Source: Microbacterium gubbeenense DSM 15944 (lineage in GTDB: Bacteria > Actinomycetota > Actinomycetes > Actinomycetales > Microbacteriaceae). Taken from it: DNA of 64,000 bases. The stretch lies in contig NZ_KE383914.1 of NCBI RefSeq assembly GCF_000422745.1, positions 104,686 through 168,685 of the forward strand. The letters run 5' to 3'. Below the pieces are notes generated by a model. The model searched no databases. It saw nothing but the letters and a program-made list of their open reading frames with translations, and was not told the origin of the DNA. Both the position numbers and the translations under genes were made by a program. Positions 11,557-26,089 of the stretch are shown one piece after another (position 1 is the first letter of the stretch; each line of letters starts with the position of its first letter).

Positions 11557-11684
11557 TGACGCGCCCGCGCGAGACGCGAATCGGCATGACACAATAATCG
11601 TGGCGTGCCCGTGCGAAGGCGTTGAGTTGCTCCGCCGGGCCCAGGGACTGCGTCCGCCATTCGTTTCACAACGAGGAGCGTCAG

Positions 11685-12554
11685 ATGTCCGAGACGATCG
11701 AGGCACCGGCCGAGCGGGTCGAGCGCACGCAGCAGCTGCGCGCATACCTGATGTGCCGACCGGAACACTTCACGGTGTCGTACTCCATCAATCCGTGGAT
11801 GCATCCGGATGATCCCACCGACACGCGGCGTGCGGTGTCGCAGTGGCAGAAGCTGTACGACGCGTACCGGGCGCTCGGACACGAGATCGACCTGATCGAT
11901 TCGCAGCCGGGCCTGCCCGACATGGTCTACACCGCGAACGGCGGATTCGTCATCGACGGCATCGCGTATCCGCCGAAGTTCCGCCATGCCGAGCGGAGCG
12001 GCGAGGAGAAGTTCTTCACCGAGTGGTTCCACGATCGCGGGTTCGAGGTCGTCGAACCGAAGACCACGAACGAGGGCGAGGGCGACTTCCTGCTCGCCGG
12101 TGACGTGATCCTCGCGGGGCGGGGGTTCCGATCCTCCGACGAGAGTCACCGCGAGGTCGCCGACATCTTCGGCCGCGAGGTCGTCTCGCTGACCCTCGTG
12201 GATCCGCGGTTCTATCACCTCGACACGGCGCTGTCGGTGCTGGACCCCGTGGTCGCGCCCGGTGCAGAGCCGACGATCGCGTACCTGCCCGGCGCGTTCG
12301 ACGAGGCGAGCCGTCGGATCCTCGCGGAGCGCTTCCCGAGCGCGATCCGCGTGGCAGACGCAGACGGATCCGTCTTCGGACTGAACTCGGCCAGCGACGG
12401 ACGCAACGTGTTCATCTCGCCGCGCGCGACGGGGTTCGAGGCACAGCTCGCAGAGCGCGGCTACACGCCCGTCGCGATCGATCTGTCGGAGCTGCTGCTC
12501 GGCGGCGGCGGCATCAAGTGCTGCACGCTCGAACTGAGGGGAGCGGGAGCATGA
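11685..12554 (+). CDS. ddaH: Dimethylargininase (DDAH)-like amidinohydrolase
   Basis: 289 aa, pentein/amidinotransferase fold. Hydrolyses N-omega-methylated arginine to citrulline and methylamines. Visible catalytic set: Glu/Asp in NEGEGDF (129-135), His178 in DPRFYHLDTALSVLD and the nucleophile Cys279 or Cys280 in GGGIKCCTLEL near the C-terminus; substrate loop DMVYTANGGFV (79-89). ATG 11685 has GAGGAG 7 bases upstream. Its last bases overlap the start of the ornithine aminotransferase gene (ATGA), so the pair is one operon. Arginine deiminase-like activity is an alternative, but the length and motifs fit DDAH. Confidence 0.85.
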   Translation: MSETIEAPAERVERTQQLRAYLMCRPEHFTVSYSINPWMHPDDPTDTRRAVSQWQKLYDAYRALGHEIDLIDSQPGLPDMVYTANGGFVIDGIAYPPKFRHAERSGEEKFFTEWFHDRGFEVVEPKTTNEGEGDFLLAGDVILAGRGFRSSDESHREVADIFGREVVSLTLVDPRFYHLDTALSVLDPVVAPGAEPTIAYLPGAFDEASRRILAERFPSAIRVADADGSVFGLNSASDGRNVFISPRATGFEAQLAERGYTPVAIDLSELLLGGGGIKCCTLELRGAGA

Positions 12555-13723
12555 CCTCGCACATCGCACGCAACTACGCGCCGCTTCCGGTGGAGATCGC
12601 CACCGGCGCGGGGGCATGGGTGAACGACGTCGACGGCCGGCGCTACCTCGACATGCTCGCGGGCTACTCGGCGCTGAACTTCGGCCACTGCAATCCCACG
12701 CTCGTGAAGGCCGCGACGGATCAGCTCGCGCGCGTCACGCTCACGAGCCGCGCGTTCTCGAGCGACCAGCTCGAGCCGTTCGCCGCCGCGCTCGCGAAGC
12801 TCTGCGGTAAGGATCTCGTCCTCCCGATGAACACGGGCGCCGAGGCTGTCGAGACGGCGATCAAGGTGGCGCGCGCGTGGGGATACCGCGTCAAGGGGAT
12901 CCCCGACGGGCAGGCGAACATCATCGTCGCCGAGAACAACTTCCACGGCCGCACGACGACGATCGTGGGGTTCTCGAACGATGAGGATGCGCGCGCCGAC
13001 TTCGGGCCGTTCGCGCCTGGCTTCACGACGGTGCCGTTCGGTGACGCGGAGGCGCTCGCCGCAGCGATCGACGAGAACACGGCAGCGGTGCTGATCGAGC
13101 CGATCCAGGGCGAAGCGGGCATCATCGTGCCGCCCGACGGATACCTGACCGCCGTGCGCGAGATCACGCGCGAGCGGCGGGTGCTGATGATCGCCGACGA
13201 GATCCAGTCGGGGCTCGGCCGCACCGGCGAGACGTTCGCCTGCGACCGCGAGGGCGTCGTGCCCGACATGTACCTGCTCGGCAAGGCGCTCGGCGGAGGC
13301 ATCGTGCCGGTGTCGGCGGTCGTCGCCGACGAGGATGTGCTCGGCGTGATCGAGCCGGGGCAGCACGGATCCACCTTCGGCGGCAACCCGCTCGCCGCGG
13401 CGGTCGGCCACGCGGTGGTCGACATGCTCGCGACCGGCGAGTGGCAGGAGCGGGCGCGGTCGCTCGGCGAACACCTCGCGAACCGCCTTGAGCCGCTCAT
13501 CGGTCACGGTGTGACGGAACTGCGATGCGTCGGGCTGTGGGCGGGCATCGACGTGGATCCGGCCGTCGGCACCGGACGTGAGATCGGCGAGCGGCTGCTC
13601 GCGCGCGGCGTGCTCGTGAAGGACACGCACGGCCAGACGATCCGCATGGCGCCGCCGCTCACGATCCGCGCGACGGAGCTCGACTGGGCCGTCGAACAGC
13701 TGGCGCTCGTGCTCAGGAAATAG
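12551..13723 (+). CDS. rocD: Ornithine--oxo-acid transaminase
   Basis: 390 aa, class-III PLP aminotransferase. Moves the delta-amino group of ornithine to 2-oxoglutarate, giving glutamate semialdehyde. Landmarks: GYSALNFGHCNP, MNTGAEAVETAIKVAR (93-108), NNFHGRTTTIVGFS, EPIQGEAGIIVPP (183-195), Asp216 in IADEIQSG and PLP lysine Lys245 in YLLGKALGGG. Length matches RocD. Coupled to the DDAH-like gene by a 4-bp overlap; together they suggest use of arginine or methylarginine via ornithine. Followed by a two-way terminator. Confidence 0.95.
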   Translation: MTSHIARNYAPLPVEIATGAGAWVNDVDGRRYLDMLAGYSALNFGHCNPTLVKAATDQLARVTLTSRAFSSDQLEPFAAALAKLCGKDLVLPMNTGAEAVETAIKVARAWGYRVKGIPDGQANIIVAENNFHGRTTTIVGFSNDEDARADFGPFAPGFTTVPFGDAEALAAAIDENTAAVLIEPIQGEAGIIVPPDGYLTAVREITRERRVLMIADEIQSGLGRTGETFACDREGVVPDMYLLGKALGGGIVPVSAVVADEDVLGVIEPGQHGSTFGGNPLAAAVGHAVVDMLATGEWQERARSLGEHLANRLEPLIGHGVTELRCVGLWAGIDVDPAVGTGREIGERLLARGVLVKDTHGQTIRMAPPLTIRATELDWAVEQLALVLRK

Positions 13724-13782: not shown

Positions 13783-15693
13783 CTACGCGTTGATGAGGTC
13801 GAGGACTTCCTGGGCAGTCGTGGCCCGGCGAAGACGGTCGACATTGTTCTCGTCGGCGCAGAACTCTGCGATCCGGCCGAGTACCTCGAGGTGCTCGTCG
13901 GCCTTGCCCGCTATGCCGAAGAGAACGTATGCGGTGTCGCCATCGAAGTCGATTCCGTCCGGCACCTGAACCATCGACACACCGGTGCGGAGGATCTCCG
14001 CGTCGGACGATTTCGTTCCGTGAGGGATCGCGACGTGGTTTCCGACGTACACGGAGGTGTCCCGCTCACGATCCTGCATCGACTGAATGTACGCGGATGT
14101 GGCGAAGCCGCCGTTCACCAGGAGCTGCCCGGCCGCCGCAATGGCGTCCTCCTTCGTGCCGAATGCGCGTCCGAGTTCGATGGTGCCCGGCCCGAACACG
14201 CCTGAGCCGAGGACCGGCTCGCGCTCGGCGGACACGGTCTGTTCGGACGCGCGCCCCGACTGCACAGCATCGATGAAATCGACGATGTCCGTGTACTGGT
14301 CGGCTTCGATGAAATTCGTGATGGTCATGAACTTCTTGCGCCCGTCGGCATGGAGCTTCTTCGCCCGGTCGACGAGTTGGGTGTGAGTGATGACGAGGTC
14401 AGCATCGGCAGGAATCTCCTCGATCTTCGAGTTGCTCACCGACACATCGAGCATGCGCTTGCGGATCTGCGTCTTCAGCACCGACGCTCCCATCGCGCTC
14501 GAGCCCATCCCGGCGTCGCACGCGACGACGACCTTGCTGATGCGAACGCCATCGGTGCCGTCGCGCAGGACTTCGCTGTTGTGACGCTCACGGTCAGCTT
14601 CGCTGCCGGTAGCGAGCTCCGCGTCGTCCTCGCCGTTGTATCGCTTGCGCTCTCCGCGCAACAGCGCCCAACCGATGACGAACGACACGATCATTCCGCC
14701 GAAGAAACCAGCGAGGTTGCCGAGAAGCGCCCCGCTCGGGGTGAGCGCGAGCATCGCGAAGAAGCTGCCGGGAGACGGCGTCGCGACCGTTCCGCCGCCC
14801 AGCAGCTGCAGCAGAAACAGCGAGGTAGCCATGCCGCCCATGGTGGCGAACACGAGCTTCGGCTTCATCAGCACGAACGGGAAGTACACCTCGCCGATGC
14901 CGCCGATGCCAGCGATGACTGCGGCCATCGGGGCGGTGCGCTTGGCCATCCCGACGCCGAACACGGTGATGGCGAGCAACGTGCCGACGGAGGGCCCGGG
15001 GTTGGCGTCCACCAGGAACAGAATGGACTTGCCGTACTCGGCGACCTGCTCGATGCCGAGCGGGCCCATGATCCCGTGGTTGATGGCGTTGTTCAGGAAC
15101 AGAACCTGCGCCGGAGCAACGAGGATCGACACGAGCGGGAGCAGGCCGGTTGCGAGGATCCAGTCCACTCCCGCCGACAGCACGTTCAGCACGACCTGGA
15201 ACACCGGGCCGATGCCGAGGTATCCAGCGATGGCGAGGAAGACGCCGAGGATCCCCATCGAGAAGTTGCTGATGAGCATCTCGAATCCGGGCTTCACTTT
15301 GCCGTCGTAGAGGCGGTCGATCTGTTTCATCAGCCACGCAGCAAGCGGTCCCATGACCATCGCTCCGATGAGCATGGTCACATCCGCACCGATGACGACG
15401 CCGAGTGTGGCGAGCACACCGATGGCGCCTCCGCGCACTCCGTGCACCATGTGGCCGCCCGCGTAGCCGATCAGCATCGGCAGCCCGTAGGTCATGATGG
15501 GCGATACCAGCTCGCCCAGTTCCTCGTTGGGGAACCAACCGGTCGGAATGAACAGCGCGGTGAGCAGGCCCCAGGCGACGAAGACGCCGAGGTTCGGCAT
15601 CACCATGCCGCTGAGAAAGTTCCCGAATCGTTGAATGCGCACCAGGACGGTGCTCTGCTTGCGCGGCGTATTGCGCTCAGTTGTGGTGGTCAC
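13783..15693 (-). CDS. mtlA: PTS mannitol-type EIICBA component (MtlA-like)
   Basis: 636 aa, the length of fused mannitol EIICBA. The IIC membrane domain (about 15-345) contains NAINHG at 202-207 and GGIGE at 264-268, both substrate-site motifs of MtlA. IIB begins near 383 with phosphorylated Cys392 in VVACDAGMGSSAMGA; IIA follows with His558 in VAIPHGT. It takes up and phosphorylates a polyol. The operon partner is closest to sorbitol-6-phosphate dehydrogenase, not to mannitol-1-phosphate dehydrogenase (MtlD), so the substrate may be sorbitol or another polyol. Last gene of a four-gene minus-strand operon. Confidence 0.9.
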   Translation of the reverse strand: MTTTTERNTPRKQSTVLVRIQRFGNFLSGMVMPNLGVFVAWGLLTALFIPTGWFPNEELGELVSPIMTYGLPMLIGYAGGHMVHGVRGGAIGVLATLGVVIGADVTMLIGAMVMGPLAAWLMKQIDRLYDGKVKPGFEMLISNFSMGILGVFLAIAGYLGIGPVFQVVLNVLSAGVDWILATGLLPLVSILVAPAQVLFLNNAINHGIMGPLGIEQVAEYGKSILFLVDANPGPSVGTLLAITVFGVGMAKRTAPMAAVIAGIGGIGEVYFPFVLMKPKLVFATMGGMATSLFLLQLLGGGTVATPSPGSFFAMLALTPSGALLGNLAGFFGGMIVSFVIGWALLRGERKRYNGEDDAELATGSEADRERHNSEVLRDGTDGVRISKVVVACDAGMGSSAMGASVLKTQIRKRMLDVSVSNSKIEEIPADADLVITHTQLVDRAKKLHADGRKKFMTITNFIEADQYTDIVDFIDAVQSGRASEQTVSAEREPVLGSGVFGPGTIELGRAFGTKEDAIAAAGQLLVNGGFATSAYIQSMQDRERDTSVYVGNHVAIPHGTKSSDAEILRTGVSMVQVPDGIDFDGDTAYVLFGIAGKADEHLEVLGRIAEFCADENNVDRLRRATTAQEVLDLINA

Positions 15694-15730
15694 CCGAACT
15701 CCTTTGTCGGTGAGAGGTCAGCCCGTCCCG

Positions 15731-16525
15731 TCAACGGGACTTGCCGCCCGTGATGTTGATGGTGGTGCCCGTGATGTAGGTCGAGTGGTCGGACAGCAGG
15801 TAGGAGACGAGGTCCGCCAGCTCCTGGTGTTCGCCGACGCGGCCGAGCGGGATGGAACCGGTGTAGTCGTCGTCGATGTAGTTCGGGTCGAGCCCGCGTG
15901 TGTAGGCCAGCGCCGCGTAGTTCGCGTCGTTGTTCATGTTCGTGCGCTTGTTGATGCCGGGGGCGACTCCGACGACGCGAATGCCGTGCCCACCGAGCTC
16001 CTTCGCCCAGGAGCGCGTGAACCCGTTCAGCGCTGCCTTGGTTGCCGAGTACAGGCTCTGACCGGCGGATCCCTCCACGCCCGCCTCGGACGAGATGTTG
16101 ACGATGACACCGCCGCCGGTCTTGAGGAACTCCCGCACGACGGCCTGAGCGCAGAGGAAGGGCCCCTTCTGGTTGACGCTCGTGATGAAGTCGAAATCGG
16201 CTTCGGTCGCTTCGTAGTCGCTGTTCTGGCCGAAGTGGTCCACGAGCAGGCGGGGTCGGTTCACCCCCGCGTTGTTCACGAGCCCGTCCACGCGCCCGAA
16301 GGTCGCAACGGTCTCCGCGACGAGGTTCGTCACACTCTCGCGGTCGGTGGTGTCAGCGGCGATGGCCTTCGCGGCGTAGGAGAGCACCTCGGGCGTCGGG
16401 TTCAGATCGCCGACAATGACGGTTGCTCCGTTCGCGGTGAGGTTCTTCGCGATCTCCGCGCCGATGCCGGAGGCGCCGCCGGTGACGATGATGATCTTGT
16501 CGTGCAGGTCGAGCCATTTGCTCAT
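15731..16525 (-). CDS. SDR oxidoreductase, sorbitol-6-phosphate 2-dehydrogenase-like
   Basis: 264 aa classical short-chain dehydrogenase. NAD(P) motif TGGASGIG at 15-22, NNAG at 84-87, catalytic Ser145/146, Tyr159 and Lys163. The segments VNRPRLLVD, ISSEAGVEGSAGQSLYSATKAAL and AKELGGHGIRVVGVAPGI closely follow sorbitol-6-phosphate 2-dehydrogenases of Gram-positive bacteria. Proposed reaction: oxidation of the PTS-delivered polyol phosphate to a ketose phosphate. ATG 16525 is preceded by AAGGACAACA as ribosome site; the longer frame lies inside the upstream gene. It is 17 bp after the SIS gene and 37 bp before mtlA. Confidence 0.85.
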   Translation of the reverse strand: MSKWLDLHDKIIIVTGGASGIGAEIAKNLTANGATVIVGDLNPTPEVLSYAAKAIAADTTDRESVTNLVAETVATFGRVDGLVNNAGVNRPRLLVDHFGQNSDYEATEADFDFITSVNQKGPFLCAQAVVREFLKTGGGVIVNISSEAGVEGSAGQSLYSATKAALNGFTRSWAKELGGHGIRVVGVAPGINKRTNMNNDANYAALAYTRGLDPNYIDDDYTGSIPLGRVGEHQELADLVSYLLSDHSTYITGTTINITGGKSR

Positions 16526-16542
16526 AGTTGTTGTCCTTCGTC

Positions 16543-17100
16543 CTATTCGAGATTCGCGTGGTGCCGCCACAGACCGTGCAGGTCGGCGCCGATGTCGTCG
16601 ATGAGCATGAGTGCGAGGGAGTCGCCGAGCAGCAGGAGACACTGCTCGAACAGGCTCGTCATCGGTTGCTGCGAGGGCACCTCTCCCGGCAGAGCGAGCT
16701 TCGTCTGTACGGGGATCCGTACGAATACGGAAGCGTGCTGACGCATCGAACTCTCGGGGTTGGATCCGATGTGCGCGACGGCCGAACCGAATGATCGTGC
16801 CTTCGCTGCGATCGCCAGCGGGATCGCGCTCTCGCCGCTGCCCGAACCGACGATGAGCAGGTCGGCGTCGGTGATGGCGGGCTCCGTGATCTGGCCGACC
16901 ATGACGGTGTCGATTCCCAGGTGTGCCAGCCGTTTCGCGATGGCCTCGAGTGCGAGCTTCACGCGGCCGACGCCGACGAAGAACACGCGGTCGGCTCGCC
17001 GGATCGAGGCGAGGAGCTCGTCGACGGCGGTCGCGTCGACGGTGGCGAGAGTGCTTGCGATCTCGTCAGCGACGATGCGCTGCGCGGCGAGGTAGCTCAC
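16543..17100 (-). CDS. SIS-domain sugar-phosphate isomerase, 6-phospho-3-hexuloisomerase-like
   Basis: 185 aa, the size of single-SIS PHI (HxlB) proteins. Features: DRVFFVGVGRVKLALEAIAKRLAHLG (38-63, the sugar-phosphate loop), DLLIVGSGSGESAIPLAIAAKA (80-101) and IPVQTKLALP, PMTSLFEQCLLLLGDSLALML near the C-terminus, as in PHI. PHI interconverts 3-hexulose-6-P and fructose-6-P. The usual partner, hexulose-6-P synthase, is absent; an RPE-like epimerase takes its place. The GTG start overlaps the upstream TGA by four bases. The exact substrate is inference. Confidence 0.75.
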   Translation of the reverse strand: MSYLAAQRIVADEIASTLATVDATAVDELLASIRRADRVFFVGVGRVKLALEAIAKRLAHLGIDTVMVGQITEPAITDADLLIVGSGSGESAIPLAIAAKARSFGSAVAHIGSNPESSMRQHASVFVRIPVQTKLALPGEVPSQQPMTSLFEQCLLLLGDSLALMLIDDIGADLHGLWRHHANLE

Positions 17101-17789
17101 GAGCTGGATCCCGCCGACGCGACGGCCTCGTCGAGCAGGGCCTTGTTCGTCTCGAGCGAGCGGCCGGGGACGAACAGGCTCGTGCTTCCGAGAACGAGAT
17201 TCGTGGCGCCCGCGCGGACCAGGTCCGGAATGACCTCGAGAGACACTCGCCCGTCGACCTGCAGGTCCACATTCAGGTCCTGCGCGTCGATGAGGGCGCG
17301 CAGCCGCCGGACCTTTTCGACCGCGTACGGCACCTGCTTCTCCGACTTGTCGGTCGCATAGCCAGGATTGATGAGCATCAGGCACACCGAGTCGACCCGC
17401 GGAAGGATGAACTCCAGCACCGACAACGACGTGGCGGGGTTCAGCGCTACGCCGACGCGGGCGCCGGCCTTCTTCGCGAGATTGATGAGGCGGTCCGCGT
17501 GGAGCGTGGTCTCCAGATGGAAGGTGACGCTCTCTGCGCCCAGGTCGAGCATCTCCGACACGTAGAACTCGTTGTCGACCGTCATGATGTGGGCGTCCAT
17601 CGTGAGGTCGGTGACGTCCCTCACCCGGCGCACCGTCTCCAGCCCGAGCGGCATGCTGGGGCTGAACTTGCCGTCGAGGATATCGACATGAAGGGCGTCG
17701 ACGCCGACTCGCTCGATCTCTTGGATCGTCGGTTGCAGGTTCGCGAGGTCTCCGCACATGATCGATGCGGAGTAAGTGATTGCTGCCAT
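17097..17789 (-). CDS. Ribulose-phosphate 3-epimerase family protein (Rpe/AlsE-like)
   Basis: 230 aa TIM-barrel epimerase. Metal ligands appear conserved: His34 and Asp36 (HVDILDG), His67 (DAHIM), Asp179 (QVDGR); Ser8 in YSASIM. The HLETTLHADRLI segment and INPGYATDKSEKQ, where ordinary Rpe has DPGFGGQ, place it away from housekeeping Rpe and nearer the AlsE-type hexulose-phosphate epimerases. First gene of the polyol operon, with AGGAAAGG upstream of its ATG. It would epimerise C3 of the ketose phosphate made by the SDR. Substrate is inferred only. Confidence 0.8.
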   Translation of the reverse strand: MAAITYSASIMCGDLANLQPTIQEIERVGVDALHVDILDGKFSPSMPLGLETVRRVRDVTDLTMDAHIMTVDNEFYVSEMLDLGAESVTFHLETTLHADRLINLAKKAGARVGVALNPATSLSVLEFILPRVDSVCLMLINPGYATDKSEKQVPYAVEKVRRLRALIDAQDLNVDLQVDGRVSLEVIPDLVRAGATNLVLGSTSLFVPGRSLETNKALLDEAVASAGSSS

Positions 17790-17893
17790 TGACGACCTTT
17801 CCTCCCAGATGGATGCCCGCGACCGCGCGAGGCATAAGCGAGACTACGAATCACAAATAGGTTGTTCAACGACGGGTTTATGACGGAATGGAG

Positions 17894-19210: not shown

Positions 19211-20239
19211 CTACGCCCCCGAGCTCTCCCGCACGACGAGCGAGGGCTGCATCGTCACGGTGCGGTGGGTGTGCTCGTTCGGTGTGAGGATCTCCTCGAG
19301 CAGCAGAGCGGCCGCGGTCAGCCCCATGTCGTGGCCGGGCTGGGCGACGGAGGAGATGGGCACGGTGTTGTCGTGCGCGAAGTGGTTGTTGTCGTGGCCG
19401 ATGACCGCGATGTCGCGCGGCACGTCGATGCCGTGCACCTGGAGGGCATGGATCGCTCCCGCCGCGAGCGCGTCGGCCGCGGCGATCAGCCCATCGGGTC
19501 GCGATCTCGCGCTGCGAGCTGCGAGCTCATCGCCCAGCTCCGTCCCGCCGCGCATCGTGATGCGTTCGGTCTCGACGATCTCGAGGTTTACACCGGGCGT
19601 CTCCGCAACCGCGCGCTCGGCCCCGCGCAGTCGCGCGGCGACGGCGCTGAGGCTGAAGGGTCCGCCGGAGAAGACGAGCTTCTTGCGTCCGTTCTCGATC
19701 AGGTGGCGCGCGGCGATGTAGCCGCCGTACTCGTCGTCGTTCACGACGCCGCAGGAGTCGCCCTCGCCGGGCCAGTTGACGAACACGAGGGGCGTGCCGC
19801 GGCTGCGCACGGCGAGCGCGGCATCGAGCGGCGCGTCGAGCGGCGCGAGGATGAGCCCGCTCAGCTGCGACTCCTCGAACAGCGACAGGTGCTGGTTCTG
19901 CTTGTCGAAGTCGACGTCGCTGTTGGCGAGCACGAGTTGGCGGGACTGCTCGTCGAGGCCTGCCTCGATTCCGCGGGTGATGTCGAGGAAGAAGGAGTTG
20001 CCCAGGTCGACGACGACGAACCCGACGGTGTGCGACCGGCCGACGGCGAGGCGTCGTGCCGCGTCGTTGCGCACGAAGCCGAGTTCGCTGATCGCGTTCT
20101 CGACGCGCTCGCGGGTCGAGTCGGTGACGACCGACGGGTTGTTCAGCACGTTCGAGACCGTCCCCATCGACACGCTGGCGTGCTGCGCGACGTCCTTCAT
20201 CGACGGCCGGCCGGAGTTCGAGTGCTTCATGATCATCAC
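19211..20239 (-). CDS. LacI-family repressor of the rhamnoside locus
   Basis: 342 aa. The N-terminal HTH (MKDVAQHASVSMGTVSNVLNNPSVV, about 14-38) is followed by the hinge RRLAVGRSHTVGFVV and a periplasmic-binding-like effector domain (SGLILAPLDAP, FVNWPGEGDSCGVVNDDEYGG, DGLIAAADALAAGAIHALQ, DIAVIGHDNN). Start GTG 20239 or the ATGs at residues 2 and 4. It is divergent from the ABC importer/GH78 operon; two identical-type palindromes (20272-20285, 20294-20307) fill the space between. Effector probably rhamnose or a rhamnoside (inferred). Confidence 0.9.
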   Translation of the reverse strand: MMIMKHSNSGRPSMKDVAQHASVSMGTVSNVLNNPSVVTDSTRERVENAISELGFVRNDAARRLAVGRSHTVGFVVVDLGNSFFLDITRGIEAGLDEQSRQLVLANSDVDFDKQNQHLSLFEESQLSGLILAPLDAPLDAALAVRSRGTPLVFVNWPGEGDSCGVVNDDEYGGYIAARHLIENGRKKLVFSGGPFSLSAVAARLRGAERAVAETPGVNLEIVETERITMRGGTELGDELAARSARSRPDGLIAAADALAAGAIHALQVHGIDVPRDIAVIGHDNNHFAHDNTVPISSVAQPGHDMGLTAAALLLEEILTPNEHTHRTVTMQPSLVVRESSGA

Positions 20240-20265
20240 ATTCTGTCTCGGATTTGCGTGCGCGC

Positions 20266-20294
20266 TTGCAATTGAATCGCTTCAAGCTTAGCGT
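20266..20294 (+). promoter_or_regulatory. Promoter of rhamnoside ABC operon
   Basis: -35 TTGCAA (20266-20271), 17-bp spacer, -10 TAGCGT (20289-20294). Operator O1 fills the spacer and O2 starts at the last base of the -10, a layout giving tight repression. Confidence 0.55.
20272..20285. promoter_or_regulatory. LacI operator O1
   Basis: TTGAATCGCTTCAA, a near-perfect palindrome of LacI type with central CG. Same motif at 20294-20307 and 26204-26217. Confidence 0.7.
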
Positions 20295-20307
20295 TGAACC
20301 GCTTCAA
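20294..20307. promoter_or_regulatory. LacI operator O2
   Basis: TTGAACCGCTTCAA; centre-to-centre distance to O1 is 22 bp, two helical turns, so two dimers would sit on the same face. Confidence 0.7.
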
Positions 20308-20348
20308 ACCATACGCGGCCGGGTAGGACCGCGAATCAAGGAGGATTC

Positions 20349-21641
20349 ATGAGACTCACGCGCAAGACCCTGACGCGAGGTGCAATGGTCGCCGTCGCCG
20401 GCACATCGGCGTTCGCGCTGATGGCCTGCTCGGGCGGCGGAGGCGGCGCTGCGAGCGCCGATTCGCTGTCGGTGCTCGTCAACGTCGAGAACGCCGAGGT
20501 CCCCGCCGTGCTCGACACCCTCGCCGCCGGCGCGTGCTCGGAGCAGGCCGAGGCCATGCCGGTCGAGATCGAGACGACCCCACAGACGAACCTCGACCAG
20601 CAGCTGCAGCTGCAGGCCGGCCAGGATGCCCTCCCGGTGCTGTTCTCCGCGGGCAACGCTCCGTCGCTGACCGCCGAGCTCGCCGAGGCCGGCCACGTCG
20701 CCGACTTCGAGAAGGTCCTCGGTGACCTCGGCATCGCCGACCAGATCGAGCCCGCCGCGGTCTCGACGATCGAGAGCCTCTACGGCGGATTCAACGCCCT
20801 GCCGTTCGAATACAACGTTGAGGGCATTTGGTACAACAAACAGCTCTTCGCCGACAACGGCATCGACGAGCCGCAGACGTTCGATGACATGGTCACGGCC
20901 GCCGAGACGCTGAACGCCGCGGGCGTGCAGCCGTTCTCCGCGAGCGGCGAGCAGGGCTGGCGCATCACCCGCCTCATCTCGAGCTACATCTTCCGCGACC
21001 TCGGCCCCGACGCGATGCAGAAGGTGGCCGACGGCGAGGCCGAGCTCACCGATCCCGAGTACGTCGCGGCCGCGCAGGCGATCGCCGACCTCGGCGCCGA
21101 GGGCTGGTTCGGCAAGGGCGTCGGCTCGATCGACATGGCGACCAGCGAGAACCAGTTCCTCAACGGATCCGCCGCGATGTTCTACATGGGCAGCTGGTTC
21201 CTCAGCGGCCTGAACGACCCCGAGATGAACCAGATCGGCGTCGAGAACGTCGGCTTCATGCCGTTCCCCGGCGTCGAGGGCGGCGCGGGCGACCGCTCGC
21301 AGCTCGCCGCCAACGTCGGCCTGCCGCTGACGATGAACGCGAACCTCGTGAACGACGACACGACCGGCTGGCTCGAGTGCATCGTCGAGAACTACGGCTC
21401 GACCGCCCTCGAGCAGGAGAACCGCGTGTCCGGTTTCACGCTCAACGAAGAGGTCGCCGACGTTCCCGAGCTCACCAGCATGGTGCAGGAGCAGGTTGCC
21501 GAGACAGAGACGACCGTGCTCTGGTTCGAGGCGCTGTTCTCGGCCGAGGCGACGACGACCAGCCAGCGCAACGCCGCCCCCCTCGTGACCGGATCCATCT
21601 CCGCTGAGGAGTTCATGGAACTGGTTCAGGCCGACATCTGA
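20349..21641 (+). CDS. Sugar ABC transporter substrate-binding lipoprotein
   Basis: 430 aa, extracellular solute-binding family 1 fold. Lipobox LMAC with Cys27, followed by a Gly-rich linker. The mature domain has typical SBP1 stretches: DALPVLFSAGNAP, ALPFEYNVEGIWYNKQLFADNGIDEPQTFDDMVTAAE (split across lobes) and NGSAAMFYMGSWF. ATG 20349 has AAGGAGG six bases upstream. First gene of an operon with two permeases and a GH78 rhamnosidase, so the ligand is probably rhamnose or a rhamnosyl oligosaccharide. A strong hairpin follows the stop. Confidence 0.92.
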   Translation: MRLTRKTLTRGAMVAVAGTSAFALMACSGGGGGAASADSLSVLVNVENAEVPAVLDTLAAGACSEQAEAMPVEIETTPQTNLDQQLQLQAGQDALPVLFSAGNAPSLTAELAEAGHVADFEKVLGDLGIADQIEPAAVSTIESLYGGFNALPFEYNVEGIWYNKQLFADNGIDEPQTFDDMVTAAETLNAAGVQPFSASGEQGWRITRLISSYIFRDLGPDAMQKVADGEAELTDPEYVAAAQAIADLGAEGWFGKGVGSIDMATSENQFLNGSAAMFYMGSWFLSGLNDPEMNQIGVENVGFMPFPGVEGGAGDRSQLAANVGLPLTMNANLVNDDTTGWLECIVENYGSTALEQENRVSGFTLNEEVADVPELTSMVQEQVAETETTVLWFEALFSAEATTTSQRNAAPLVTGSISAEEFMELVQADI

Positions 21642-21646
21642 TCCGC

Positions 21647-21675
21647 GTGTGGGCGGCGGGACACGCCGCCCACAC
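21647..21675 (+). other. Intercistronic stem-loop after the binding-protein gene
   Basis: gtgtgggcggcg, 5-base loop, cgccgcccacac: a perfect 12-bp stem six bases past the stop codon and before the permease ribosome site. It likely protects the binding-protein mRNA or attenuates readthrough. Confidence 0.6.
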
Positions 21676-21696
21676 CGGCTGGAGGAGATATCCCGG

Positions 21697-22590
21697 ATGA
21701 AGAACATTCTCGGTGACAGGCGAGCGGCGTTCGTGCTGCTCGCGCCTGCGCTCATCATCTACTCGGTGATCATGCTGGTGCCCGTCGTGGTGTCGCTCGG
21801 TTACACCGTGTTCGAGGGCAACGCGATCAGCGGCTTCGAGTTCGTCGGCGTCGACAACTTCGTGCGCCTCATCGGCGATACCAGGGCGCACGAGGCGCTC
21901 CTGTTCACCCTCAAGTACGCGCTCGTCGTGACAGTCGGGCAGGTTGTCGTCGGCTACCTCCTGTCGCTGCTGTACGTGTTCGGGCTGAAGCGAGCGTCCG
22001 GTGTTGTGCGCACGCTCGTGTTCTTCCCGATCGTGATGCCCACGGTCGCCGTCGCGCTGCTGTTCCAACAGCTGTTCTCGATCGCCCCGACCGAGGGCGT
22101 CGTCAACTCGATGCTCTCGGGCTTCGGCGGTGTGCCCGTCGACTGGTTCGGCGACGGTGGCAGCGCCTTCGTCGTGATCGCAATCATGGACATCTGGCGC
22201 TCGATGGGCTTCTACGGCGTGCTGCTGTACGCCGGCCTCGTCGACATTCCGGAGGACGTGCTCGAATCGGCGCGCATCGACGGCGCGAGCGGCTGGAAGC
22301 TCGTGCGCCACATCGTGATTCCGCTGTCGCTCCCGGTGCTGATCTCATCGGTCATCTTCTCCATCAACGGCACGCTCAAGGTCTTCGACAGCGTGATGGC
22401 GCTGACCTCAGGCGGGCCCGGAACGAGCACCAGCCCCCTGACGATCTCCGTGTTCGACCACGCCTTCACCTACGGCGAGTACGGCTACGGATCCACCCTT
22501 GCAATGCTGCTGACGATCATCTGTCTCATCGTGACGATCTTCGTCTTCCGCGGCTCGCGGCGTGACCTGACGAAGGACGGCTCCCGATGA
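21697..22590 (+). CDS. Sugar ABC transporter permease (MalF-type)
   Basis: 297 aa with six membrane helices beginning AAFVLLAPALIIYSVIMLVPVVVSL. The EAA loop that contacts the ATPase reads DVLESARIDGASGWKLVRHIVIP (about 187-209). ATG 21697 has GGAGGAGA upstream; the longer frame covers the intercistronic hairpin and is rejected. Overlaps the second permease by ATGA. No ATPase is encoded in the operon, so it would use a shared ATPase such as an MsiK-type protein elsewhere (known for actinobacterial CUT1 importers). Confidence 0.9.
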   Translation: MKNILGDRRAAFVLLAPALIIYSVIMLVPVVVSLGYTVFEGNAISGFEFVGVDNFVRLIGDTRAHEALLFTLKYALVVTVGQVVVGYLLSLLYVFGLKRASGVVRTLVFFPIVMPTVAVALLFQQLFSIAPTEGVVNSMLSGFGGVPVDWFGDGGSAFVVIAIMDIWRSMGFYGVLLYAGLVDIPEDVLESARIDGASGWKLVRHIVIPLSLPVLISSVIFSINGTLKVFDSVMALTSGGPGTSTSPLTISVFDHAFTYGEYGYGSTLAMLLTIICLIVTIFVFRGSRRDLTKDGSR

Positions 22591-23501
22591 ATACGACGCA
22601 GTCCACCCGCATGATGACGACCTCAGGATCGCGCGACAAACGGATCCGCGTGCCGCGCCGCCGTCAGCGTGCCCGCGTGCGCCTGCGCCGCGCTCCGCTC
22701 TGGATCGCGGTCGCCGCGCTGCTCGTTATCGTCGGCTACCCGCTCGTCTGGCTCTTCCTCGGATCCTTCAAGTCGCAGCGCGAGTTCCTCGAGGAACCGA
22801 CGTGGGCGCTTCCGCAGGAATGGAGCTTCGAGAACTACGCCACCGCATGGGACACCGCCGGTCTCGGCTCTGCCCTGCTCAACAGCACGGTGACCGTCGT
22901 GCCCGCGCTGTTCTGCATGCTGCTGTTCGGCACGGCCGCGGCTTTCGCACTCGAGGTGCTCGTCTGGAAGGGGCGGGGCGCCGTGCTCATGATCTTCCTC
23001 GCGGGCATCATGGTGCCGGCCCAGATGATCCTGCTGCCGCTTTTCAGCGCGTACTTCCAGACCGGCCTCACGGGCTCGCTCTGGCCGCTGTTCCTGACAT
23101 ATACCGCTACCGGCATGCCCTTGACCGTGTTCCTCATGGCGACCTACTTCCGAGCGATTCCCCGCGAGGTCTTCGAGGCGGCCACGCTCGATGGCGCATC
23201 CATCTACCGGCAGTTCTTCTCGATCGCCGTGCCGATGATGCGCAACGGTCTGTTCACGGTCGGGCTGGTGCAGTTCTTCTTCTTCTGGAACGACCTGCTC
23301 ATCTCGCTGACCTTCGCGAACTCGGGCAAGCTCCGCACGCTCCAGGTCGCGCTCCTGAACTTCAACGGCGACTTCGGCACGACCCAGTACGGACCGCTCT
23401 TCGCGGCCGTCAGCATCAACGTATTCGCGCTGCTGGCCATCTACCTCGTGCTCAACCAGAGCATTCAGAAGGGCTTGACGGCCGGCGCCGTCAAGGGGTG
23501 A
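22587..23501 (+). CDS. Sugar ABC transporter permease (MalG-type)
   Basis: 304 aa; an unusually long Arg-rich N-terminus (about 35 residues) precedes six helices. The EAA loop is EVFEAATLDGASIYRQFFSIAVPMM (about 192-216), typical of MalG partners. The alternative start at the second Met pair (near residue 9) would shorten the basic tail. Coupled by ATGA to the upstream permease and 23 bp before the rhamnosidase gene. Confidence 0.9.
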   Translation: MNTTQSTRMMTTSGSRDKRIRVPRRRQRARVRLRRAPLWIAVAALLVIVGYPLVWLFLGSFKSQREFLEEPTWALPQEWSFENYATAWDTAGLGSALLNSTVTVVPALFCMLLFGTAAAFALEVLVWKGRGAVLMIFLAGIMVPAQMILLPLFSAYFQTGLTGSLWPLFLTYTATGMPLTVFLMATYFRAIPREVFEAATLDGASIYRQFFSIAVPMMRNGLFTVGLVQFFFFWNDLLISLTFANSGKLRTLQVALLNFNGDFGTTQYGPLFAAVSINVFALLAIYLVLNQSIQKGLTAGAVKG

Positions 23502-23524
23502 CCGGCGTGCAGAGAGGATCAACA

Positions 23525-26089
23525 ATGCGCGTGAGTGCGCTGCGTTTCGAACAGGCGGACGACGCGATGGGAATCGGCGTCAGCGCGCCGCGGCTCAGCT
23601 GGCGGATCGAGGCCGCGCCGGGGTGGCGCCAGGCCGAGTGGGAAACGGAAGTCTCCCGCGGGTCAGATGTCACGACCGCGCGCCGATCGGGCGCCGATCA
23701 GGTGCTCGTCGCCTGGCCTTTCGCCCCGCTCGCATCGCGAGAGCGCGCGGACGTCAGGGTGCGCGTGCGCGGATCCGACGGAACCTGGTCGGCGTGGAGC
23801 GAGTCCGCGACGGTCGAGGCGGGATTGCTCAGCGCCGACGACTGGAGCGCCCGGCCGGTTGGACCCGGATGGGATGAAGAGCCGGACACCGAGCGCCCCG
23901 CATCGCTCGTGCGCCGCGAGTTCTCCCTGACCGGTGACGTGTCGAGCGCGCGCCTGTACGTATCAGCGCACGGGCTCGCCGAGGTCGAGATCAACGGCCA
24001 GCGAGTCGGCGACCACGAGCTCACCCCGGGCTGGACCGTGTACGACGAGCGACTCGTGTACTGGACGTTCGACGTGACCGAGCACCTGACGCCGGGCGAC
24101 AACGCGATCGGCGCGTGGCTCGGCGACGGCTGGTACCGCGGGCGACTCGGCTTCAACGGCGGGTACCGCGACCTGTACGGCACCGACCAGTCGCTCATCG
24201 CGCAGCTCGAGGTCACTCTCACGGACGGATCCGTCGTCACGGTCGCGACCGACCGCGACTGGACGGCGGCGCCCAGCCCCATCCTCGTGTCGGGCCTGTA
24301 CGACGGCGAACAGTATGACGCGCGCGCCGAGATCGCCGGGTGGTCTTCGCCGGGCGAGGTCGCGGGCGATTGGTCACCCGTGGCCATCGGCCAGAGAGAT
24401 CCGGCCACGCTCGTCGCGCCCGTGCTGCCGCCCGTGCGCGTCACCGAGGAGCTTTCGCCCGCCCAGATCACGCGGCTCGACGACGGCGGTCACCTGATCG
24501 ACTTCGGGCAGAATCTCGTCGGCCGTCTCCGCATCTCCGTCGACGGGCCCGAGGGGCATCGCGTCGAACTGCGCCATGCCGAGGTGCTCGAGCACGGCGA
24601 GCTCGGGGTCCGCCCGCTGCGGCTCGCGGCGGCGCACGACGTGCTGACCCTCGACGGTCGCGGGCCCCGCACGTGGGAGCCCCGCTTCACGTTCCACGGG
24701 TTCCGATACGCCACCGTGCACGGCGTCACCGAGCTTGCGGACAGCGACGTCGTCGCGCGCGTGATGCACAGCGACATGCGCCGCACCGGCCAGTTCCGCA
24801 GCTCGAATGCCGAGCTCGACCGGCTGCACGAGAACGTGGTGTGGGGCATGCGCGGCAACTTCGTGAGCATTCCCACCGACTGCCCGCAGCGCGACGAGCG
24901 ATTGGGCTGGACGGGCGACATCCAGGTGTTCGCTCCGACCGCCTCATTCCTCTTCGACAGCGCCGGGTTCATCGAGAACTGGCTCGCCGATGTGGCGATC
25001 GAGCAGCTCGACGACGGCACCGTGCCGTGGTTCGTCCCGACGATCCCGGGCGGCCCCACCTGGACGCCGATCAGGACCGGTGCCGTCTGGGGGGATGTCG
25101 CTGTGCTGACGCCGCTGACCCTGCACGAGAGGTTCGGTGACGAGCACGTGCTCGAGGCGCAGTTCGACAGCGCCACGGCCTGGGTCGAGCGGATGATCCG
25201 CGAGGCGGGGCCCAGCAGACTCTGGCGTTCCGGGCACCAGCTGGGCGATTGGCTGGATCCGGCCGCGCCCCCGCACGATCCGGCCGCTGGGCGCACCGAC
25301 AGGTTCCTCGTCGCGCAGGCCTACTTCTCGTACTCGACGAGCCGAATGGCGGAGTTCGCGCACGCGGTCGGACGCACGCTCGAGGCGGACCGGTACACGC
25401 GGATCGCCAGCGAGGCGCGCGATGTATTCCGTGCGGAGTATGTGTTGCCGGGTGGGCTCCTCGCCAGCGATGCGCAGGCGGCCTATGCGCTCGCGATCCG
25501 ATTCGGTCTGCTCTCGGCCGACGAGCGCGCCGCGGCAGGCGATCGCCTCGCCGAGCTCGTGCGTGAGGCGGGCAACCGCATCGCGACCGGCTTCGCCGGC
25601 ACTCCGGTGATCTCCGACGCGCTGACCGACACCGGACACCTCGACACCGCATACGACCTCCTGCTCGAGACCGAGTGCCCGTCCTGGCTGTACACGGTGC
25701 GCATGGGCGGCACGACGATCTGGGAGCGCTGGGACTCGATGATGCCGGACGGCACCGTCAACCCGGGCGACATGACGTCGTTCAACCACTACGCGCTGGG
25801 GTCGGTCGCCGATTGGATGCACCGGGTGATCGGCGGGCTCTCGCCGGCCGCGCCCGGGTATCAGCGCGTGCTCTGGGCGCCGCAGCCGGGGGGCGGTCTC
25901 GATCACGCCGAGGTCTCGTTCGACTCGCCGTACGGCGAGATCACCGGATCCTGGCGGCGGGAGGCGGACGGCATCCGCTACGCGCTCGAGACGCCGACGG
26001 GCGTCGACGCGATCGTCCGGCTGCCGGGTGCGAACGACGAGGCGCTTCCTCCCGGATCCTCGCTCGAGCGGTTCGTCCCGACCGCCTGA
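23525..26089 (+). CDS. Alpha-L-rhamnosidase, GH78
   Basis: 854 aa without a signal peptide, hence cytoplasmic: cleaves imported L-rhamnosides. N-terminal beta domains start RVSALRFEQADDAMGIGVSAPRLSW; the (alpha/alpha)6 catalytic domain carries DCPQRDERLGWTGDIQ at 452-467 (acid residue region, Asp452, Asp457, Glu458, Asp465) and GGTTIWERWDSM with Glu734, the second conserved acid of GH78. The C-terminal beta-sandwich ends at FVPTA. ATG 23525 has GAGAGGA upstream; the longer frame lies inside the permease gene. Its position after the importer marks the locus as a rhamnoside-use operon. Followed by a terminator. Confidence 0.93.
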   Translation: MRVSALRFEQADDAMGIGVSAPRLSWRIEAAPGWRQAEWETEVSRGSDVTTARRSGADQVLVAWPFAPLASRERADVRVRVRGSDGTWSAWSESATVEAGLLSADDWSARPVGPGWDEEPDTERPASLVRREFSLTGDVSSARLYVSAHGLAEVEINGQRVGDHELTPGWTVYDERLVYWTFDVTEHLTPGDNAIGAWLGDGWYRGRLGFNGGYRDLYGTDQSLIAQLEVTLTDGSVVTVATDRDWTAAPSPILVSGLYDGEQYDARAEIAGWSSPGEVAGDWSPVAIGQRDPATLVAPVLPPVRVTEELSPAQITRLDDGGHLIDFGQNLVGRLRISVDGPEGHRVELRHAEVLEHGELGVRPLRLAAAHDVLTLDGRGPRTWEPRFTFHGFRYATVHGVTELADSDVVARVMHSDMRRTGQFRSSNAELDRLHENVVWGMRGNFVSIPTDCPQRDERLGWTGDIQVFAPTASFLFDSAGFIENWLADVAIEQLDDGTVPWFVPTIPGGPTWTPIRTGAVWGDVAVLTPLTLHERFGDEHVLEAQFDSATAWVERMIREAGPSRLWRSGHQLGDWLDPAAPPHDPAAGRTDRFLVAQAYFSYSTSRMAEFAHAVGRTLEADRYTRIASEARDVFRAEYVLPGGLLASDAQAAYALAIRFGLLSADERAAAGDRLAELVREAGNRIATGFAGTPVISDALTDTGHLDTAYDLLLETECPSWLYTVRMGGTTIWERWDSMMPDGTVNPGDMTSFNHYALGSVADWMHRVIGGLSPAAPGYQRVLWAPQPGGGLDHAEVSFDSPYGEITGSWRREADGIRYALETPTGVDAIVRLPGANDEALPPGSSLERFVPTA

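Follow-up and report, generated by a model that had tools for sequence, protein, structure and literature searches.

A conserved epimerase-isomerase module in a polyol phosphotransferase operon of Microbacterium gubbeenense and its possible role in C4 inversion of ketose phosphates

The subject of this report is a four-gene operon in a 64,000-nucleotide stretch of DNA (the window) from Microbacterium gubbeenense DSM 15944 (contig NZ_KE383914.1, positions 104,686 to 168,685). At window positions 13783-17789, on the minus strand, genes for an epimerase, a 6-phospho-3-hexuloisomerase (PHI) homologue, a short-chain dehydrogenase/reductase (SDR) and an enzyme II (EIICBA) of the phosphotransferase system (PTS) follow one another in this order, and a gene for a ROK-family regulator diverges from them (Table 1). 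The genes lie at the place given in an earlier note on this DNA, which was made from the sequence alone. The PHI gene starts with GTG and overlaps the stop codon of the epimerase gene by four bases (GTGA). The operon is real and conserved, and most likely meant for a polyol other than mannitol. The reaction proposed for the epimerase and the PHI homologue together is a net inversion at C4 of a ketose phosphate, a proposal given slightly less than an even chance.

Table 1. Features of the operon and its surroundings, with related operons from other bacteria. Scores are in bits.
Feature	Position	Strand	Family score or remark
Epimerase, Rpe/AlsE superfamily, separate subfamily (FSPS, loop 6 longer by three residues, VDGR; beta8 loop of AlsE length)	17097-17789	-	PF00834
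PHI homologue (SIS), with GRVK/VGQ/SGES, not GRSG/SGET	16543-17100	-	TIGR03127 164.2, cut-off 160
SDR, predicted polyol-phosphate dehydrogenase of the sorbitol-6-phosphate dehydrogenase family	15731-16525	-	NF004817 348.3, cut-off 304
Mtl-family PTS EIICBA	13783-15693	-	NF011663 667.1, cut-off 589; EIIB Cys392 and EIIA His558 present
ROK-family transcriptional regulator, divergent	17880 (or GTG 17907)-19172	+	Homologues at the corresponding position of L112, L113 and L114
Conserved intergenic block, candidate regulator site	17864-17888	not assigned	GTTCAACGACGG-n-TTnATGACGGA
Galactitol-type operons with Rpe-like epimerase and PHI, no hexulose-phosphate synthase (Klebsiella, Pantoea, E. faecium)	L105:2364-6534, L102:3402-7540, L101:58-7507, L100:1801-7558		

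The epimerase scores below the cut-offs of both named families of its superfamily, with 176.4 against 212.6 for Rpe (TIGR01163) and 145.7 against 271 for AlsE (NF007266; E-value 1.4e-42). Its catalytic tetrad, H34, D36, H67 and D179, is invariant. An H-D-H-D tetrad, together with the methionine triad of Rpe, is described in PMC5312968. In an alignment and tree of 21 sequences, ten of them subfamily members, every member has the motifs FSPS and DGR and a loop 6 with three extra residues, features found in none of the 11 others. The first methionine of the Rpe triad is replaced by isoleucine or leucine in 10/10 members and kept in 11/11 others. The members form a separate clade with 100/100 support, in a tree whose several long branches call for caution about long-branch artefacts.

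Another character of the subfamily is the beta8 loop, whose length is said to be significant in a 2008 paper on the structure of AlsE. The loop has AlsE length in 9/9 window-type epimerases, the Paraburkholderia member being ambiguous, and is one residue shorter in E. coli Rpe and in the organism's own housekeeping Rpe. The sequences are GSTSLF in the window, GTSGLF in E. coli AlsE and GSA-IF in E. coli Rpe. The gene had been described at first as an AlsE-like 3-epimerase; the likeness holds for the length of this loop, but identity with AlsE is not supported by the score or by the separate clade.

A structure model of the epimerase (predicted local distance difference test, pLDDT, 83.9) resembles Rpe/AlsE chains with Z values of 25-30.5. 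Reading the substrate from the fold was tried and given up. Because Rpe (Z up to 30.5) is not separated from AlsE (Z 27.9), and because loop 144-152 is poorly modelled (pLDDT < 50), the model leaves the substrate undecided.

The PHI homologue has motifs of its own. Operon-linked PHIs carry GRV, VGQ and SGES in 9/9 cases, and the PHIs of two other regions, L103 and L104, carry GRSG and SGET, residues which are taken here to line the active site of PHI. These two regions had been candidates for relatives of the module and turned out to be ordinary operons, in which PHI is paired with hexulose-phosphate synthase (HPS). Close PHI homologues (at least 60% identity) occur in 2/295 genomes of the genus and in 1/396 of the phylum; another 62 genomes of the genus have PHI-like matches of at most 44% identity.

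The epimerase subfamily is also rare. It is found in 5/398 genomes of the family (E <= 1e-50) and in 2/297 of the order (at least 60% identity). A scan of viral contigs with the epimerase gave no relative. A scan of genome contigs, made with a two-sequence alignment and limited in sensitivity by its two peptide patterns, gave three loci, one in a Bifidobacteriaceae metagenome-assembled genome (MAG) with 62% identity and the others with 35-36%.

The four-gene order, whose conservation the earlier note had proposed to check, recurs in three further members of the family (L112, L113 and L114), where the ROK gene likewise diverges from the genes for epimerase, PHI, SDR and EIICBA. Identities to the window proteins are 68-69% for the epimerase, 68-70% for PHI, 71-72% for the SDR, 62-64% for the EII and 60-62% for the ROK protein. 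A fourth locus in the family (L115) has genes for epimerase, PHI and MtlD with a divergent EIICB.

An example of the pair in another context is a megaplasmid of Enterococcus raffinosus, where a DeoR gene is followed by genes for epimerase, PHI, MtlD, EIIA and EIICB. The epimerase and PHI matches are adjacent in 5/5 records of this species. The same gene order, with PTS and MtlD, is present in L097 (OR848250.1), a record titled Listeria phage. Polyol genes of the E. raffinosus type are held both by this record and by a second one so titled, L098 (OR847312.1), and the two most likely stem from bacterial contamination of a phage collection.

In two further clusters, one from the same genus (L081:6544-14534) and one from the Bifidobacteriaceae MAG (L037:7217-13727; same contig as L048), the pair lies behind an ATP-binding cassette (ABC) importer and a PfkB-type kinase. 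Both clusters also contain an HPS (TIGR03128, 249.6 and 227.8 against 200) and a second, different PHI. L081 has, by eye, another, shorter HPS-like protein. Finally, a Paraburkholderia plasmid (L080) combines an ABC importer, an alcohol dehydrogenase, an FGGY kinase of xylulokinase type (TIGR01312, 493.4 against 380.25) and a subfamily epimerase, with a GRSG-type PHI at the opposite end.

Thus, a PHI is in the cluster at 10/10 distinct subfamily loci and lies directly downstream of the epimerase in nine. The pair stays constant while the importer and the dehydrogenase vary: PTS with SDR, PTS with MtlD, ABC importer with PfkB-like kinase and HPS, or ABC importer with alcohol dehydrogenase and FGGY kinase. 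The coupling of epimerase and PHI, already pointed out from the window by itself, is borne out by these loci, and the two genes, as judged from their neighbourhoods, form a module. Since the window epimerase is the sister of the ABC-context epimerase of L081 (support 96/93), the pair has changed context. No PHI was recognised by eye among the open reading frames of the AlsE-like clusters L038 and L049, or in a third such cluster, L082, where a longer SIS-domain gene lies about 4 kb away. At L099, an rpe gene of AlsE length is the neighbour of rbsK, and an hxlB gene lies at the margin of the region.

The importer was compared with the EIIs of eight mannitol operons containing mtlD (E. coli, the organism's own, Priestia, Klebsiella, Salinivibrio, E. 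faecalis, Paenibacillus and Enterobacter). All eight carry NNAINHG and G(I/V)HE. The window EII retains NNAINHG and has GGIGE instead of GGIHE; GGIGE is found in 4/4 SDR-type EIIs, namely the window and its three relatives. EIIs of the MtlD modules have NNVIDQG (3/3), and NNAIGQG is present in the Mtl-family EII of a Listeria operon that lacks mtlD. The positions correspond to His195 and His256/Glu257 of E. coli MtlA, which are presumably relevant to mannitol binding; a literature search gave nothing on this point.

In a tree of EIIs, the SDR-type and MtlD-type proteins fall into separate 100/100 clades, and the mannitol EIIs are not firmly one group. Kinship of the EIIs thus does not point to a shared substrate. 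The EIIC family TIGR00851 does not discriminate here, because its cut-off of 468.4 is missed by the window EII (430.9) and also by the mannitol MtlA of the same genome (452.5).

The SDR exceeds the cut-off of the sorbitol-6-phosphate dehydrogenase family, as its first description had it. In the plasmid collection, it is matched best (59.8%) by a protein of a Priestia glucitol PTS operon (L093). A sorbose-type PTS with a relative of the SDR (L095) was set aside, as was L096, a region that carries no annotation.

The rest of the genome (3.02 Mb, 99.96% complete) narrows the role of the operon. A separate mtlA-mtlD pair is present, with an EIICBA 43% identical to the window EII (NF011663, 691 against 589) and an MtlD (NF002652, 409.4 against 356). 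Mannitol is probably served there, and its uptake by the operon is unlikely because of this pair and because the window EII lacks GIHE. The non-mannitol part of the rarer-polyol route imagined in the earlier note is therefore likely. The absence of HPS, also stated there, holds for the operon and for the genome, where no protein passes the TIGR03128 cut-off and the single weak match overlaps the locus of the housekeeping Rpe, the one further PF00834 gene. Because this first enzyme is missing, a role of the operon in the ribulose monophosphate (RuMP) pathway is unlikely. Searches of the genome for LacD and for a GatZ/KbaZ-type protein (PF08013, taken here to be a tagatose-6-phosphate 4-epimerase) gave no match. 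Three class II aldolase-like loci fall under the cut-off for GatY/KbaY, the tagatose-bisphosphate aldolase (TIGR01858, best 219.8 against 443.6).

The model for the module is based on stereochemistry. The 2- and 3-ketose phosphates, hexuloses and heptuloses, were enumerated computationally for what an epimerase and a PHI could reach. Among D-series 2-ketoses and with a PHI of known stereochemistry, only tagatose-6-phosphate (leading to fructose-6-phosphate) and D-manno-heptulose-7-phosphate (leading to sedoheptulose-7-phosphate) need both enzymes. The route in either case is PHI, then the epimerase at C4 of the 3-ketose, then PHI again. If PHI is loose at C3, sorbose-6-phosphate and gluco-heptulose-7-phosphate need both as well. 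From allulose-6-phosphate, the epimerase by itself suffices to give fructose-6-phosphate, so that PHI would not be needed in the allulose example of the earlier note. The constant pairing of epimerase and PHI therefore argues for C4 inversion.

In this model, the Mtl-type PTS would import a polyol other than mannitol and phosphorylate its terminal carbon. Next, oxidation of C2 by the SDR would yield a 2-ketose phosphate that is wrongly configured at C4. Once the PHI homologue had shifted its carbonyl to C3, the epimerase would invert the adjacent C4, and PHI would return the carbonyl to C2. Overall, C4 would be inverted and a ketose phosphate that belongs to central metabolism would be formed. 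This product would preferably be sedoheptulose-7-phosphate, made from D-manno-heptulose-7-phosphate; the six-carbon alternative is fructose-6-phosphate made from tagatose-6-phosphate, with galactitol or talitol as the polyol. Fructose-6-phosphate, which had been named as the end product before, is not established.

The seven-carbon version of C4 inversion is possible, if rather improbable as a specific assignment. Perseitol in the window, through the SDR, and volemitol in the E. raffinosus type, through MtlD, would both be converted into D-manno-heptulose-7-phosphate and on to sedoheptulose-7-phosphate. The heptitol would be phosphorylated at C7, oxidised at C2 and inverted at C4 via 3-keto-heptulose-7-phosphate, and the product would enter the pentose phosphate pathway.

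One argument for this version is the register from the phosphate end. C4 of a 3-hexulose-6-phosphate corresponds to C3 of ribulose-5-phosphate, the Rpe register. C4 of a 3-heptulose-7-phosphate corresponds to C3 of allulose-6-phosphate, the AlsE register, three carbons from the phosphate carbon. Thus, by register, a loop of AlsE length fits a seven-carbon substrate.

The other argument comes from the configurations of the polyols, which are general knowledge. Read from C7, perseitol and volemitol show the same order as mannitol (R,R,L,L), and they give the same manno-heptulose-7-phosphate on oxidation of the right-hand and the left-hand C2 hydroxyl, respectively. These are the preferences of glucitol-6-phosphate and mannitol-1-phosphate dehydrogenases. 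A heptitol substrate would thus explain the Mtl-type EII and the two types of dehydrogenase. It would also explain why both enzymes are needed, why the loop has AlsE length and why epimerase, PHI and EII have altered motifs.

A parallel to the window is found in galactitol-type operons, where a PHI without HPS stands beside a Gat-annotated PTS and an Rpe-like epimerase. An SDR is included in Pantoea and on one Klebsiella plasmid; on another Klebsiella plasmid, the operon lacks an SDR and contains an RpiB-type isomerase. The Klebsiella and Pantoea plasmid operons are like the window in their classes of PTS, epimerase, SDR and PHI. They differ in having a Gat-annotated EII, an epimerase loop of Rpe length and a GRSG PHI, and so represent a parallel arrangement with another subfamily. 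Rpe length is found in 4/4 galactitol-type epimerases, as C4 inversion predicts for a path from galactitol through tagatose-6-phosphate to fructose-6-phosphate. The type of EII and the length of the beta8 loop go together in the way that fits the model (Gat type with short loop at 4/4 loci, Mtl type with long loop at 7/7). A like cluster of P. ananatis is tabulated under OVR-A loci, with annotations and without a function, in the available portions of PMC5817063. For epimerase-PHI operons in general, the searched literature, as far as its accessible text goes, gives annotation tables only (PMC5817063, PMC12928451). In the E. faecium operon, an annotated secondary thiamine-phosphate synthase, with no NCBIfam match at 1e-25, lies between PTS IIB and the epimerase (L100:5777-6301).

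Several other explanations can be proposed for the operon. The SDR may form D-allulose-6-phosphate from allitol (or MtlD from altritol), with the epimerase acting at C3 like AlsE to give fructose-6-phosphate and PHI being an accessory or a scavenger of by-products. The AlsE length of the beta8 loop throughout the window-type epimerases, which sets them apart from E. coli Rpe and the housekeeping Rpe, and the AlsE profile match speak for this route. It is nevertheless unlikely: PHI would be superfluous and yet is in the cluster at every subfamily locus, the epimerase lies far under the AlsE cut-off in its separate clade, and E. coli AlsE and four relatives of AlsE length were aligned and lack FSPS, the longer loop 6 and DGR. 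Alternatively, oxidation at C3 could give a 3-ketose phosphate directly, after which the epimerase would correct C4 and PHI would form the 2-ketose. This accounts for both enzymes with one use each, and in the enumeration a C4-inverted 3-ketose does reach fructose-6-phosphate by epimerase and then PHI. However, action at C3 would be required of two unrelated families of dehydrogenase, the NF004817 SDRs and MtlD, and characterised members of both act at C2. The alcohol dehydrogenase and xylulokinase-type kinase of L080 also fit a 2-ketose, and oxidation at C3 is considered quite improbable.

A further explanation would be an ordinary sorbitol operon, in which the SDR makes fructose-6-phosphate from sorbitol-6-phosphate, with epimerase and PHI as passengers. 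This agrees with the family score of the SDR and with the glucitol PTS operon that holds its best plasmid match. The pair is conserved across SDR, MtlD and kinase contexts, though, its genes overlap in the window, and the importer is of Mtl and not of glucitol type. Use of sorbitol only, with no need of the pair, is unlikely, and the passenger explanation as a whole is given very little weight. Least probable is a role of PHI and epimerase in formaldehyde metabolism (RuMP), with the pair in a polyol operon by chance. It could appeal to the score of PHI over its family cut-off and to the HPS of the two ABC-type clusters. It is largely refuted by the lack of an HPS over cut-off in a nearly complete genome and of GRSG, the motif of both aligned PHIs from ordinary HPS-PHI operons.

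C4 inversion itself has points that weigh against it. The activities of all operon proteins, and with them every reaction and substrate named here, are predictions, as opposed to the genes, their order and conservation, the scores, the altered motifs and the missing HPS, which are observed. The stereochemistry of the dehydrogenases is assumed from family membership. The altered PHI motif could mean another reaction altogether. L081, one of the ten module loci, was retrieved by a PHI search, which biases the count towards co-occurrence. C4 inversion does not account for the HPS and the additional PHI of the two ABC-type clusters; an HPS-type retro-aldol cleavage of 3-keto-heptulose-7-phosphate would yield fructose-6-phosphate or allulose-6-phosphate and formaldehyde. 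The AlsE length of the loop speaks against six carbons in this mechanism, and it may simply be inherited. An aldolase route for tagatose is possible, given the three loci below cut-off. Among the galactitol-type operons, that of E. faecium (L100) has no dehydrogenase in the stretch, and both epimerases scored (L100 and L102) exceed the Rpe cut-off, so that such operons may use ordinary Rpe isozymes.

Known systems share parts of the arrangement. The mannitol PTS operon (mtlA-mtlD) has an EII of the same family, and its MtlD recurs in the E. raffinosus-type module, but the window has a changed EII motif, an SDR in place of MtlD and the additional epimerase and PHI. The glucitol/sorbitol PTS operon shares the dehydrogenase family; its importer is of another family, and no epimerase or PHI is annotated there (L093). 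The E. coli allose operon, with AlsE as D-allulose-6-phosphate 3-epimerase, is similar in epimerase superfamily and beta8 loop length. It has no PHI, an AlsE with FVPN, a short loop 6 and VDGS, an ABC importer and an allose kinase. The HPS-PHI pair of the RuMP pathway has the PHI homologue in common; the window lacks HPS and has altered PHI motifs and a polyol context. Finally, a manno-heptulose pathway with two kinases, an aldolase and an ABC importer is predicted for Rhodobacteriaceae bin08 in PMC5507952. It would share manno-heptulose-7-phosphate with the seven-carbon version and uses kinases and aldolase instead of PHI and epimerase. In the accessible text of the literature searched for perseitol and volemitol, this route is the only catabolic proposal found.

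If C4 inversion is correct, PHI, known from formaldehyde fixation, would have another function besides, as one of two enzymes that together epimerise ketose phosphates at C4. Such an inversion would replace kinase-aldolase or PF08013 routes and could assign a function to hxlB genes that lie without hxlA beside PTS genes in Enterococcus, Klebsiella and Pantoea plasmid regions. Rpe and AlsE annotations in such operons would need correction, and perseitol and volemitol would possibly gain a route of use in bacteria.

Regulation of the operon can be approached through the intergenic region. The intergenic regions of 4/4 ROK-type loci have the 10-mer GTTCAACGAC in common. The window and L112 also share a longer block, with ATGACGG repeats, which is less exact in L113 and is not seen in L114. 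The motif of the block has a single match in the window and none in 100 shuffles. The ATG at 17880 lies within the conserved block, so that 17907 may be the start of the ROK gene. The divergent ROK gene is confirmed as described before, with a conserved intergenic block shared with the operon, and its product probably controls the operon from this region.

The operon adjoins genes of other functions. Next to the ROK gene, at 19211-26089, lies a separate sugar cluster with a LacI-type regulator, a sugar-binding protein and two ABC permeases, as labelled by eye, and with an alpha-L-rhamnosidase-like protein (706 bits, under the cut-off of 1720). On the PTS side, at 11622-13723, a dimethylargininase (NF045659, 411.6 against 300) and an ornithine aminotransferase (TIGR01885, 454.3 against 378.4) stand in tandem.

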